Assembly (NCBI GenBank): GCA_937928555.1
Contig: CALFWR010000091.1
Span: 1-64,000 of the forward strand
Direction: 5' to 3'
From: an uncultured Pirellulaceae bacterium
GTDB lineage: Bacteria > Planctomycetota > Planctomycetia > Pirellulales > Pirellulaceae
Length of the DNA stretch: 64,000 nt
Both the position numbers and the translations under genes were made by a program. This document shows, in pieces, positions 22,301-64,000 of the stretch. How positions within the stretch are numbered: the stretch's first letter is position 1; the number at the start of each line of letters is the position of its first letter. The notes beneath the pieces were generated by a model. It had not been told where the DNA came from, did not search any database, and worked only from the letters and a program-made list of their open reading frames with translations.

Positions 22301-22680
22301 TTCAAAGGCGGTTGGCATGCTGCGGTGGTCACATGGGTAACGCCGGCCCTGGTAGTGTTTTTGGCTTCAGCGCAAAGAAAAACCGATTGAAAGGAGGCAG
22401 GTTGAGCCGACTTTCGCCGAGCTTGGGCAGAACGTCCAGGTAGGCTGGTTTTGTCAGCCACTTTCAAAAGCCCGCGAGACTGCGGCAGGCAATTGTTGGA
22501 GTCGACAGCCACAAACTTGTATTGTCAGAAGGAGGCGTTTAGTTGCGGAAGCGTCGCTAAACTCAGCGTGTGTTTCCCATTTTTTCTGCGGATCTTGCGG
22601 GTGTTTGGTTCGATCGCTTTCGCGACGCAGCGCAGACAACTAAATTGGTCTCTTCCAGATCACCAATTCAGGGCGACAAC
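22301..22680. other. intergenic region upstream of the FucP-like transporter
   Basis: 380 bp with no convincing gene. It should carry the promoter and any operator for the sugar transporter at 22681, but I cannot pick one out. Confidence 0.35.
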
Positions 22681-24246
22681 ATGTCAAATGCGAATGCGGG
22701 CGAAGATAAGAAATCGCTTTCAAGTGAATCGACCAAAGCGGAGATAGTGCCCAAAAAGTATCTACTTCCTTTTATCCTGACGACGTGCTGTTTCTCGTTG
22801 TGGGGTTTCGCGAATGACTTCACCAACCCATTGGTAAAGGTCTTCGAGCAGGTGTTCATCATCACGACCGGTCAGGCATCGTGGCTGCAGTTTGCTTTTT
22901 ACACCGGCTACTTTTGTATGGCGTTGCCGGCCGCATTTTTTATTCGCAAGTTTTCCTACAAAGCTGCGATCATGGTGGGATTTGCTTTTTATGTGCTTGG
23001 TGCGCTGTTGGCAGTTCCGGCAAGCATGACTGCAACGTTCGGGTTGTTTCTGCTGGGCTCCTACGTACTGACTTACGGATTGGCTTTTCTGGAGACTGCC
23101 TGTAATCCCTATATTCTCTCGATGGGGCCAAGAGAGACCGCGACTCAGCGGCTGAATCTCGCACAGGCATTCAACCCGATCGGTTCGCTGATCGGAATGT
23201 TTGTGGCCAGTCAGTTGCTTGCTCCCAACTTGCTCGTTACCGAGTTTCAACAAGACATCAAGGATGGCAAGCCAGATGTTGTGAAGTATCTTATTCAGGA
23301 CGAAGCGAACTTGCCGTCTGGTGCGACTTTGAGTGAAGACAAGAAGTCATTTATTCTGAGCGATGCTCAAAAGACAGAAGTTAAACTTTATACTGGTGGC
23401 ATACCTGACTTTGATGCCAAAGTCGGAGCATTGGGCGATGCCACGACCGACGCGATGAAAGTTTTTCGCGCTACTGATCCTGATGGGTTCAAGAGTCTGC
23501 AACAGGCGGATCTGGGCTACGTCAGAACGCCTTACGTCGTCGTTGCTGGCGTGGTGTTGGCGTTTTTGGGACTGTTTGCGGTCAGCAAGATGCCAGTGTT
23601 CAAGTCGGAACAGCAAGAAGCGCCGTTTCTTGAGATTACGGCGAGGATTTTCAAAAGGCCTCGATTCTTCGGTGGCGTATTGGCGCAGTTGTTTTACGTC
23701 GGGGCGCAGATTATGTGCTGGACGTTTGTGGTGCACTATGGGATGGAACAAGTCGGTCTGACCTTGGCCCAAGCACAGACTTATAACATTGTTGCCATGG
23801 TGATCTTTTTGCTGAGCCGCTGGATTTGCACATTTTTGCTGCGGATTTACAGTCCGGGTCGGTTGCTATTCCTGTTTGCAAATGGTGGAATCTTTTTCAC
23901 GATCGGTGCAATCGTCCTTCCGGGACACGTCGGGCTAATTTCTCTGATTTTGATTTCGGCCTGCATGTCGCTGATGTTCCCGACCATCTATGGAATTGCT
24001 CTCAATGGCATGGAAGAGGAAGAAGCCAAACTGGGTTCGGCTTACTTGATCATGTCGATTGTCGGTGGTGCAGTGTTGACCAAGCTTCAGGGTGGTTTGA
24101 TTACAGACTACGGAGTGCGTCAGTCCTTTTGGCTACCGGTGATTTGTTTTGCAGTGATTGCGATCTACGGACGCCTGACTTTTCAATTCTTCGAGCCTCA
24201 GGCGAAACGGGAGTCGGCAGGAAGTCGGGAGTCGGCAGGAAATTAG
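22681..24246 (+). CDS. FucP-type sugar:proton symporter (MFS)
   Basis: A 521-residue MFS transporter of the fucose:H+ symporter family, with 12 predicted membrane helices. Family marks: FSLWGFANDFTNPLVKVFEQ near the start and FLETACNPYILSMGPRETA. The large loop between helices 6 and 7 (about 195-295) is longer than in E. coli FucP (438 residues) and is hydrophilic. The tail has a duplicated RESAG motif from a 15-bp DNA repeat. ATG 22681 is used; the frame is open upstream without protein character. The actual sugar cannot be told from sequence. Confidence 0.88.
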   Translation: MSNANAGEDKKSLSSESTKAEIVPKKYLLPFILTTCCFSLWGFANDFTNPLVKVFEQVFIITTGQASWLQFAFYTGYFCMALPAAFFIRKFSYKAAIMVGFAFYVLGALLAVPASMTATFGLFLLGSYVLTYGLAFLETACNPYILSMGPRETATQRLNLAQAFNPIGSLIGMFVASQLLAPNLLVTEFQQDIKDGKPDVVKYLIQDEANLPSGATLSEDKKSFILSDAQKTEVKLYTGGIPDFDAKVGALGDATTDAMKVFRATDPDGFKSLQQADLGYVRTPYVVVAGVVLAFLGLFAVSKMPVFKSEQQEAPFLEITARIFKRPRFFGGVLAQLFYVGAQIMCWTFVVHYGMEQVGLTLAQAQTYNIVAMVIFLLSRWICTFLLRIYSPGRLLFLFANGGIFFTIGAIVLPGHVGLISLILISACMSLMFPTIYGIALNGMEEEEAKLGSAYLIMSIVGGAVLTKLQGGLITDYGVRQSFWLPVICFAVIAIYGRLTFQFFEPQAKRESAGSRESAGN

Positions 24247-61372: not shown

Positions 61373-62032
61373 CTAGCCGGGCATTGGATCAGGGTTGGCT
61401 TGTTCGATTTTGACGCCATCGGAGCCCGGTGCGAGGCGGTAGACGCGGTCGGCGTAGTCACGGAACAGCCCAAGGTCGTGGTGCGAAATCATGATCACCT
61501 GAAACTGCATCTCCTTGGCCGCCTGGTGGACGATCTTGACCAGTTTGGGGACAAGCTCCGGACGCAGCCAGCAGTCCTGCTCGTCGAGCACCAGGAAGCG
61601 ACGGTGCTCTGCGTCACCGAGTTGCGTCAAGGCAAACATCCGCAAGCCGACGCTTAGTACATTTTGCACCGAACCGCCCTGCCCTTTGAGGACGTCTTCG
61701 GTAAAGCCATCTCGTTCCACCGAAAACGTCACCGCGGCGGTGCCGGCTTTGAACGCCGCCTGGGTTTTGAACACGATCGGCTGACCGAGGACTTCCTGGA
61801 CCGCGATGGTGAGTTGCGATTCGATCACGCCCAGAACGCGCTCGAACAGTTGCTCGCCAAGTTCCTCCAGGGCGACTGAAACGTCGTCGGCGATTGAAAG
61901 TCGCTGGTCAAGATCCTTGAGCCGACCGGCAATGCGAACGGCGTCCTTTTGTAGTCGCTCACGCTCCCAGAAAAGCTTGTCGGTGCGGTTGCGAATCGCC
62001 GTCGGCGCGGCGAAGGCCTGCGGTTCGCTCAT
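61373..62032 (-). CDS. stand-alone Rad50/SbcC-like C-terminal ATPase lobe
   Basis: A 219-residue protein that reads as the C-terminal half of an SMC/Rad50-type ABC ATPase. A helical lead (about 15-80), a signature-like GQGGSVQNVLSVGLRMFAL (117-135), Walker B RRFLVLDEQD (144-153) and an H-loop SHHD (183-186) are visible. There is no Walker A anywhere in it, so it cannot bind ATP alone. The ATG overlaps the previous gene's stop (ATGA). With the upstream genes it would form a split Mre11-Rad50-like complex. Alternatively it could be the lobe of another SMC-like ATPase, but the operon partners favour Rad50. Confidence 0.8.
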   Translation of the reverse strand: MSEPQAFAAPTAIRNRTDKLFWERERLQKDAVRIAGRLKDLDQRLSIADDVSVALEELGEQLFERVLGVIESQLTIAVQEVLGQPIVFKTQAAFKAGTAAVTFSVERDGFTEDVLKGQGGSVQNVLSVGLRMFALTQLGDAEHRRFLVLDEQDCWLRPELVPKLVKIVHQAAKEMQFQVIMISHHDLGLFRDYADRVYRLAPGSDGVKIEQANPDPMPG

Positions 62033-62328
62033 TCGCTTTCCTCGTCGGCTGTGGTTCGTTCGAAGTCCGCTTCGACCTGGGCAAGTTCGGTTTCGATTTT
62101 GTCAAGGCTTTCCTGGTAGGACTGGCGTTTCTGTTCGTTGGATGACTTCATGGTCGCAAGCTTTTCGGTCAGCTCGTTAATGTTATGAGTGCCGAATTCT
62201 TCTTTGGCCTGCTTCTGAAGATCCTTTAGCCGCTTCTGTGCCCCTTCCAGTTCCGCCTGGACTCGGATTTTTTGCTCGTGAAACTTGCTGTAGCGTTTTT
62301 TGAGTTGGTCGATGGTTTGCTTGGTCAT
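62029..62328 (-). CDS. small coiled-coil protein of the split Rad50-like operon
   Basis: A 99-residue all-helical protein from ATG 62328 (TTG 62337 is an alternative). Nearly the whole length has heptad character (VQAELEGAQKRLKDLQKQAK; SLDKIETELAQVEADFERTT). It lies between the Mre11-like nuclease (12 bp after its stop) and the C-lobe gene (4-bp ATGA overlap). Its size and position suggest it might supply coiled coil that the split Rad50-like protein lacks; this is inference. Confidence 0.7.
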   Translation of the reverse strand: MTKQTIDQLKKRYSKFHEQKIRVQAELEGAQKRLKDLQKQAKEEFGTHNINELTEKLATMKSSNEQKRQSYQESLDKIETELAQVEADFERTTADEESE

Positions 62329-62340
62329 GATATTCAAGGC

Positions 62341-63306
62341 CTATGGATTCTGGTTGACGTCGTTGGCTAGTTCGCGAATCTCGGCCGCGACGTCGGGTTT
62401 GTACTTTGGCAGATTGTGGTCGAGAAACTCCATCAGCCCAGCGCCGGAATCGGTTTTGATGTTCAGTAGCTGTTTCAGGCCGGCAACAAAGTTCGATGAT
62501 TCATCGCCGTCGGTTTCTTCGACTGTTGATTCGTGAAAGACTTCGTCGAAGGCCTGGTGTGGAATTGTGATTTTCTTTGACACGAATCCGGTCTCCGGAA
62601 ACGTCAGTTCCAACACCGACGGAATCCGTTTTCGCGAATGTTCGCTGCGTGACCTGCGGACGATGTTGCCGGGATTCATCCAGGTGGTTTGGCCTTTGCG
62701 AACCGGTTTGGCTTCGCGGTGAATGTGGCCGTTGATCAACAGGTCCACGTTGATCATCTCGAAGGGTCCAAATTTGCCGTTTTCGTAATTGCCGATGTCG
62801 ATATCGTGATGTGAAAGCCAAACCACAAACGGCGCTGCGTCGAAGAGAGAGCTTTTGGGGACGCTGTCCAAATCGAATAGCTGTGGGATGTCCTGGCGGT
62901 AGGAAGAGCCGGCCACCACGACGCGGCGGCCTTGGATGTCGGCGGTCCAAAAATCGGTTGCGCTGACGAGCTTCAAACAACCGGCTTTGACCAGAATCGA
63001 GAACGAGTCGTTGTCGCTGAGCACCGGGTCGGCGCAGTCATGGTTCCCGTAAATGCTGACCCCGGGGTAGTCTTTCATCATCTCGATCAACTCGCCGATC
63101 ATCCACGTCGGGTTGTCGCGAGGTTTGTCAAAGATGTCGCCCAGGAAGGTCGGTAGCAGGCGGTTTTTACGCGCGTACTCGATGCACCAGCGGACTTTGC
63201 CCAGGATCGTGCGGGGAAAGTCGTCTTTGCGGAATCCGGGCTGGCGGCCTTCGATGTGCGGATCGCCGATCACCAGCAGTCCGCGATAACTGCGGGCTTT
63301 ACTCAT
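62341..63306 (-). CDS. Mre11/SbcD-like metallophosphoesterase
   Basis: A 321-residue calcineurin-type phosphoesterase with all metal motifs: GDPH (14-17), GDIFD (56-60), GNHD (87-90), SHHD (165-168), GHIH (193-196). The C-terminal ~90 residues have helical segments that may bind the ATPase coil base. In E. coli SbcD and Mre11 this domain is a 3'-5' exo/endonuclease acting with SbcC/Rad50. Here it is coupled to a Rad50-like N-part (8-bp overlap upstream), which supports the same role. Confidence 0.85.
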   Translation of the reverse strand: MSKARSYRGLLVIGDPHIEGRQPGFRKDDFPRTILGKVRWCIEYARKNRLLPTFLGDIFDKPRDNPTWMIGELIEMMKDYPGVSIYGNHDCADPVLSDNDSFSILVKAGCLKLVSATDFWTADIQGRRVVVAGSSYRQDIPQLFDLDSVPKSSLFDAAPFVVWLSHHDIDIGNYENGKFGPFEMINVDLLINGHIHREAKPVRKGQTTWMNPGNIVRRSRSEHSRKRIPSVLELTFPETGFVSKKITIPHQAFDEVFHESTVEETDGDESSNFVAGLKQLLNIKTDSGAGLMEFLDHNLPKYKPDVAAEIRELANDVNQNP

Positions 63307-64000
63307 GCGCGTGGCCTCCGTCCAGGACTACCGCTGCGGACATCTCGCCGCCGCACGTGGGGCAGGTCGGGTTGTCTTGGACCCAGTCTTCGATTTCGGA
63401 TTCGGCGGCGGCAAGTTGCTGTTGGGCTTTGCCGGCCAACTGCTGTCGCTGGTGGAGGTCTTTTTCGGCTTCGATCAGACCGCGGGTGATGCCGCTGAGT
63501 TTTTCGATTGATTCGAGGTCCAGATTGGGCGGCGGGTTGATGTTGTCGAGCGTTTTTGAGCGCCTGGCAAGACGCCGCGATGCGAGGAGTTTTGAGCTCA
63601 GTTGGTGAATCGTGTCGGCCAGGGAGTGCTCGTCCTGCAAGCTTGGCGGTTGCTGTAGTTCGCTGATTGCTGCCAGGGTTTTGTTGCACCTGGCGATTGT
63701 GGTTTGTGCTGCGGCAAGCTCTGGCCCGAGTCGCTCAAGCCGCCGGGTGTCTTCGAAGTCAGGTACCGCAGGAGTCTGGGCCACGACGCGGGCGAGTGCC
63801 GTTAGCGTGCTGGTTTCCAGGCTGAGGGAACCGATCAGGTTGAGCTTCTTTTCCAGTCGCGTGGCGGCCTGGTCCGACTGAGAGATGGATTCGAATTGTG
63901 TTTCCAGTTCGCCGACTTGTTCGGTCAATTCGTCCAGCGGCTCGAACAGTTCGAGGGCTTGTTGGGTGCGGTCGGCCTGGGAAGTCAGTTGGCGGTGCTC
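63299..64000 (-). CDS. Rad50/SbcC-like coiled coil ending in a zinc-hook-like CPTC (partial)
   Basis: The 3' 233 codons of a gene that continues beyond the right edge. The visible part is a long coiled coil (for example LFEPLDELTEQVGELETQFE) and ends NPTCPTCGGEMSAAVVLDGG..., where CPTC fits the CPxC zinc-hook of Rad50. The protein stops about 20 residues after the hook instead of continuing into a descending coil and a second ATPase lobe. That lobe is in the separate gene 61373-62032. The Walker A half should lie just outside the window. The stop overlaps the nuclease start. Confidence 0.8.
   Translation of the reverse strand, partial: EHRQLTSQADRTQQALELFEPLDELTEQVGELETQFESISQSDQAATRLEKKLNLIGSLSLETSTLTALARVVAQTPAVPDFEDTRRLERLGPELAAAQTTIARCNKTLAAISELQQPPSLQDEHSLADTIHQLSSKLLASRRLARRSKTLDNINPPPNLDLESIEKLSGITRGLIEAEKDLHQRQQLAGKAQQQLAAAESEIEDWVQDNPTCPTCGGEMSAAVVLDGGHAHE

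Follow-up and report, generated by a model that had tools for sequence, protein, structure and literature searches.

The window analysed here, a stretch of 64,000 nucleotides from an uncultured Pirellulaceae bacterium, is part of a 70-kb contig and carries at its end four adjoining genes, a to d, all on the minus strand, as are the features described below. Gene a (63299 to 64000, cut by the window edge and continuing on the contig to approximately position 64516) encodes a Rad50-type N-lobe, an outgoing arm and a C-terminal zinc hook; gene b (62341 to 63306) encodes a Mre11/SbcD-like calcineurin-type phosphoesterase of 321 amino acids with five metal motifs; gene c (62029 to 62337) encodes a two-helix coiled coil of 99-102 amino acids with a conserved (Y/F)GTxD(L/I) turn; and gene d (61373 to 62032) encodes a protein of 219 amino acids comprising a returning helix (residues 10-82) and a Rad50 C-lobe without Walker A. 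An earlier reading of this DNA, made without database searches and referred to here as the sequence-only reading, had placed the four genes in this order and on this strand, with overlaps of 8 bp between a and b and of 4 bp between c and d; the genes and both overlaps were found as described, the first overlap having the sequence ATGAGTAA and the second ATGA. The spacing between b and c is 3-12 bp and is set by the choice of the c start, since c is 102 amino acids long when read from a TTG codon and 99 when read from an ATG three codons further in.

Gene a can be read beyond position 64000 and is a 431-codon frame whose start is probably codon 27 (GTG, '..VIKRIELINFMSH'), at contig position ~64516. 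The sequence-only reading had left it to an extension past the window edge to reveal whether a Walker A N-lobe exists, and such a lobe is present: the Walker A motif GPNNCGKSA lies in gene a beyond the edge, on the same contig. The best Pfam match of the gene is AAA_23 (46 bits versus a cut-off of 27). Across 48 homologues of a, there is no variation in the Walker A residues, in the glutamine of the Q-loop, which likewise lies beyond the window edge, or in the two hook cysteines. The zinc hook CPTCGGEM (63341 to 63364), whose cysteines are C420 and C423 of the a-homologue alignment, is located 13 residues before the end of the protein, and in nearly all homologues the C-terminus lies no more than ~50 residues past the CPxC hook. 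The claim that the chain is cut right after the hook therefore holds, with d being a separate gene at every locus seen. A conserved histidine following the hook in five sequences was considered as an extra zinc ligand and was rejected, as it is not conserved in the larger set. The fold of a was taken from the homologue L058 (AlphaFold2, pLDDT 80 overall), the head of which matched SMC/Rad50 N-lobes in a fold search against the PDB (9a9j_A, Z 11.0; 1f2u_C, Z 10.7); SMC and cohesin heads scored as high as Rad50 against this model.

Between the head and the hook, gene a does not encode the simple coiled coil that had been assumed from the sequence; the middle of the a homologues is instead a tandem 39-residue helix-PP repeat with the consensus ALxxLxxPPxLxDxxxLxxLIxxLxxA. 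Self-similarity at lag 39 is 8.2 standard deviations above that at other lags (51 sequences), and the predicted helices of L058 are placed at 256, 295, 334 and 373, exactly 39 residues apart. Because the copy number of the repeat varies, the distance from the start to the hook is quantised, with clusters near 380, 419, 458, 499 and 536 residues and the longest distances, 655-658, in loci L088 and L089; a few loci are ~11 residues off these clusters. In the window's own gene a, the arm (63365 to 63832, limits approximate) comprises approximately three weak repeats and a last helix before the hook, and 39 is still the best lag in this short and weak array. The repeat region matched no PDB sequence and no Pfam family above the curated cut-off. 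Since individual units come and go while the hook is retained, we infer that they are stacked in line and do not alternate in direction, although this remains an inference only.

The tip of the arm is variable as well. The hook is absent from two planctomycete homologues (L098, 2395-4665; L076, 429-1889), which share a different C-terminal tail, and also from gene a of Microbacterium phage Magritte. In L098, the tail is preceded by a membrane-spanning-like segment (Kyte-Doolittle 2.5 over 19 residues), which suggests, on sequence grounds alone, a putative membrane-anchored Rad50-like arm. The hook-less variants fit the notion of a tip that consists of a free C-terminus and is open to exchange.

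Gene d was predicted with confidence (AlphaFold2, pLDDT 90) to form a single helix of 73 residues and, after it, an ABC C-lobe, and its best PDB matches are the Rad50 C-lobe chains 9a9j_B and 1f2u_B (Z 13.3), with Lamassu LmuB also among the fold matches (Z 8.2). The motifs of a C-lobe lacking Walker A, which the sequence-only reading had recognised in d, are all in place: in 66 homologues, G117, G119, G120 and S121 of the signature GQGGS (61670 to 61684), the residues LDEQDCW of the Walker B motif FLVLDEQDCW (61568 to 61597) and S183, H184 and H185 of the H-loop SHHD (ISHHD; 61475 to 61486) are invariant. Together, the fold matches of the a head and of d indicate that both genes encode pieces held as separate chains in the Rad50 structures 9a9j and 1f2u. 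Gene d provides no return strand beyond approximately 75 residues.

The assignment of b as a Mre11/SbcD-like nuclease is supported by its five phosphoesterase motifs (GDPH, GDIFD, GNHD, SHHD and GHIH) and by a match to Pfam Metallophos PF00149 (36 bits, cut-off 21.5, E 1e-8), with the nuclease activity itself being inferred. No match of b to the SbcD model TIGR00619 is listed, and the window's genome has no match to that model at E 1e-10. An alignment reveals a conserved helical stretch at the C-terminus of b, for which binding to Rad50 is likewise an inference. Gene c, a coiled coil of ~100 residues, occupies the same place in 59 of 80 loci and has a conserved YGTDDL turn between its two helices and an ENExKRxxYQ motif; Pfam contains no family that it matches above the curated cut-off, and it shows no profile match to any known arm.

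We consider it likely that the four genes encode a two-chain complex of the Mre11-Rad50 type that processes DNA ends. What is observed here is gene content and order, the motifs and their conservation, the individual folds, the repeat, the tip variants and the occurrence in phages; the assembly of a with d, the pairing through zinc, the role of c and the activity are inferred. In the proposed complex, chain a would supply the ATP-binding N-lobe, the outgoing arm and the C-terminal CPxC zinc hook, and chain d the stub of a returning coil and the C-lobe with signature, Walker B and H-loop, such that one a and one d would build one ABC ATPase head and two heads would sandwich ATP as in Rad50. The nuclease b would be seated on the heads, and c, a small coiled-coil subunit, would probably brace the arm by standing in for the returning strand that is missing. 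The hooks of two complexes could then join around a shared zinc ion, and the joined complexes would tether DNA ends, or process them, in recombination or repair. Since the tip is the terminus of chain a, the arm may lengthen in 39-residue steps and the tip may be swapped without disturbing the ATPase. Against the proposal, sequence similarity to Rad50 is weak outside the motifs. Also against it stand the failure to pass curated Rad50 and SMC models, the lack of a match between b and the SbcD model, the lack of a profile match of c to a known arm, the presence of a further Mre11-like set in the genome, and an exclusion of SbcCD that amounts only to a trend.

An SMC-like complex that organises chromosomes or tethers DNA, with b in a structural or regulatory role rather than that of a nuclease, has to be considered here, given that the a head model scores equally against SMC/cohesin heads and Rad50, that the modular arm length recalls the arm-length periodicity of SMC proteins (PMC5344682), and that hook-less tips exist. 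However, d is closest in fold to Rad50, a CPxC hook is a typical Rad50 feature, the metal motifs of b are all intact, and no kleisin was seen; we regard such a complex as distinctly improbable.

When 84,980 species genomes were scanned with two peptide patterns taken from d, at least 126 relatives were obtained, 80 of which were kept; the order a-b-c-d is present in 59 of these 80 homologous loci, in several phyla, and the survey for this gene order that had been suggested from the sequence turned out positive. In most of the remaining loci, a contig end interrupts the set or d is unlinked. Four further genomes of the same taxonomic order also contain homologous a-b-c-d operons, and the arrangement is not a product of chance. 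The distribution is patchy, with good matches in 6 of 146 genomes of the order and d in 16 of 392 planctomycete genomes. Carriers include Planctomycetota, Desulfobacterota, Chlamydiota, Sumerlaeota, a Spirochaetes MAG, Bacillota MAGs and others, where binning errors of MAGs are possible for single cases. All four genes are under purifying selection (dN/dS 0.01-0.38 wherever computable in ten close pairs), and the divergence of a, b and c tracks that of d (r 0.71-0.85). The d genes found are frames of 208-300 amino acids, none of them fused to a. Of 12 genomes with an unlinked d, 10 have a on another contig, and in nine of those ten b is beside it; the halves are therefore separated yet both retained, and loci with d alone cannot be interpreted as loss of the system. 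In Pirellula-type genomes (L112, L113, L116, L119, L120, L122, L123), d does not share a contig with a and b, yet both halves are kept. A long open frame in G837 that resembled a c-d fusion was also rejected, its extra length lying outside the homologous part and another gene standing between c and d.

The sequence-only reading had named a frameshift explanation as one that would refute it. A frameshift, an assembly error or a decaying SbcC gene in the window's genome would have nothing in its favour beyond the unusual gene structure itself, and it is excluded by the presence of the same split in more than 50 loci across several phyla as well as in phages, by dN/dS values well below 1, by invariant catalytic residues and the lack of any fused d, and by the whole nuclease gene that sits between the two halves; we give it practically no credence.

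The arrangement described from the sequence stands, and to it we add that the set also occurs in phages. Microcystis phage Mvi-JY20 carries a-b-c-d in the same order with overlaps, and a 485-kb uncultured phage carries a, b, a c-like coil and d with insertions that include a clamp-like gene. In Bacillus phage vB_BboS-125, genes a, c and d are accompanied by a b-like frame; this Mre11-like frame of 326 amino acids (L141, 5924-6904; ~22423-23403 of the record) is missing from the annotation of the record. In Tunturiibacter phage Tunturi_5, a, a c-like gene and b lie together and d is gp14, ~110 kb away, gp179 having been ruled out as d by alignment; in Microbacterium phage Magritte, a (gp155) and d are far apart, and gp247 was rejected as a candidate for a, since it looks like a sliding clamp. 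The phage c genes were assigned by place and length, and the c profile matches only that of the Microcystis phage among them, weakly. The phage relatives were drawn from annotated phage records; scans of viral contigs with a and d found no relatives. The phage neighbours are replication and recombination genes (UvsX, RuvC, SSB and DnaB in Tunturi_5; a Holliday junction resolvase and a UvsW-like helicase in vB_BboS-125), which argues for a role like that of gp46/47. The PHROG families 16465 ('exonuclease') and 15167 ('ATPase') have a-like and d-like phage members, respectively, which co-occur; PHROG lists phrog_16465 and phrog_15167 as unrelated to each other rather than as parts of a single enzyme, and annotators should note that they probably represent the N-terminal and C-terminal halves of one Rad50-like phage enzyme.

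These phage copies also bear on whether the set is an anti-phage defence complex, with a Rad50-like sensor and a Mre11-like effector following a logic like that of Lamassu or Gabija, rather than a repair enzyme. The sequence-only reading had allowed for either DNA-end processing or defence. The patchy distribution, the weak matches of the a head to the AriA, GajA and LmuB ATPases in PADLOC, and the appearance of LmuB among the fold matches of d would be in keeping with defence; however, the PADLOC matches of a (25-41 bits) mainly cover the shared P-loop region and not the whole ATPase, b matches no PADLOC family, and c and d give only weak coiled-coil or ABC matches. Moreover, neither defence genes nor any other neighbours that would indicate another role recur beside the operon, the phages themselves carry the set next to recombination genes, and the halves are unlinked in some genomes, which would be unusual for a defence island cassette. 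A dedicated defence role is therefore unlikely, and of the two possibilities DNA-end processing or recombination is favoured.

Taking the two-chain complex as the preferred reading, we are somewhat inclined to view the system as a distinct branch of Mre11-Rad50, with a two-protein ATPase, a one-way modular arm of 39-residue units without a return strand, and a free tip that can be exchanged among a zinc hook, another domain or a membrane anchor, and old enough to be present in several phyla and phages. The literature searched, which did not extend to subscription papers, contains no description of a split Rad50 of this kind, in agreement with the sequence-only reading, which knew of no description either, and the four-gene system has apparently not been described until now. 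Jumbo-phage genomics reports split polymerases, and the available passages of that source make no mention of a split SbcC (PMC7824862). A natural complex without a covalent return strand tests the need for a continuous returning coil in signalling between hook and ATPase. SMC proteins function only with periodic arm lengths, and the same source calls the matter unclear for Rad50 (PMC5344682); with its 39-residue steps, the present arm provides a natural series of lengths in which a need for periodicity can be examined. For structural work, the system offers small separate chains.

In canonical Rad50, the hook lies in mid-chain, and two long antiparallel heptad coils link hook and head within one chain. 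The present system shares with Rad50-Mre11 and SbcC-SbcD, including gp46-gp47 of phage T4, the ABC head motifs (Walker A, Q-loop, signature, Walker B and H-loop), the CPxC zinc hook, the adjoining Mre11-type phosphoesterase, and phage copies situated among recombination genes. It differs from them in having the N- and C-lobes on two genes, the hook at a C-terminus, an arm of 39-residue helix-PP units, a short or absent return coil, and the extra gene c. The curated Rad50 and SMC models were not passed (NF003034, 40 bits versus 700), and a search of the window's genome with TIGR00618 does not single out the operon. Because the presence of both lobes in one chain is defining and is lacking here, the system falls outside the canonical single-chain Rad50/SbcC family, although it works, as far as its activity can be inferred, like Mre11-Rad50.

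The window's genome also contains, on contig C52 (L004), a 446-aa phosphoesterase frame adjoining a long AAA ATPase frame of 1176 codons, a pair that we take, from recognising the sequences, to be YhaO/YhaN-like. It likewise places a Mre11-like enzyme beside a Rad50-like ATPase, but its ATPase is in one long frame; the split system is therefore not the sole Mre11-like set of this genome. The ATPase frame of the pair has two membrane-spanning-like stretches. As to SbcCD, the suggestion that carriers might lack the canonical system received only weak support. There was no overlap between d and SbcD above cut-off in 392 planctomycete genomes (16 with d, 44 with SbcD; chance 0.14) or in 297 Desulfobacterota genomes (14 and 53; chance 0.06), both values being uncorrected for ancestry, but SbcD was present in 1 of 26 other carriers. 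Mutual exclusion of the split system and SbcCD is thus no more than a hint, and only a trend.

A head built from separate N-half and C-half chains, matched by a and d, is familiar from the Rad50 crystal constructs (PDB 1f2t, 1f2u, 1us8 and 1ii8), in which P. furiosus Rad50, encoded by a single gene in nature, is listed as separate chains; unlike in these constructs, the split between a and d is natural and conserved. The nearest published oddity is the Mre11-Rad50 fusion (Mimivirus R555 and others), found in viruses and sporadically in bacteria, which is also a non-standard gene structure of the same complex but represents the opposite rearrangement, with the nuclease and the whole ATPase in one chain (PMC3175470).
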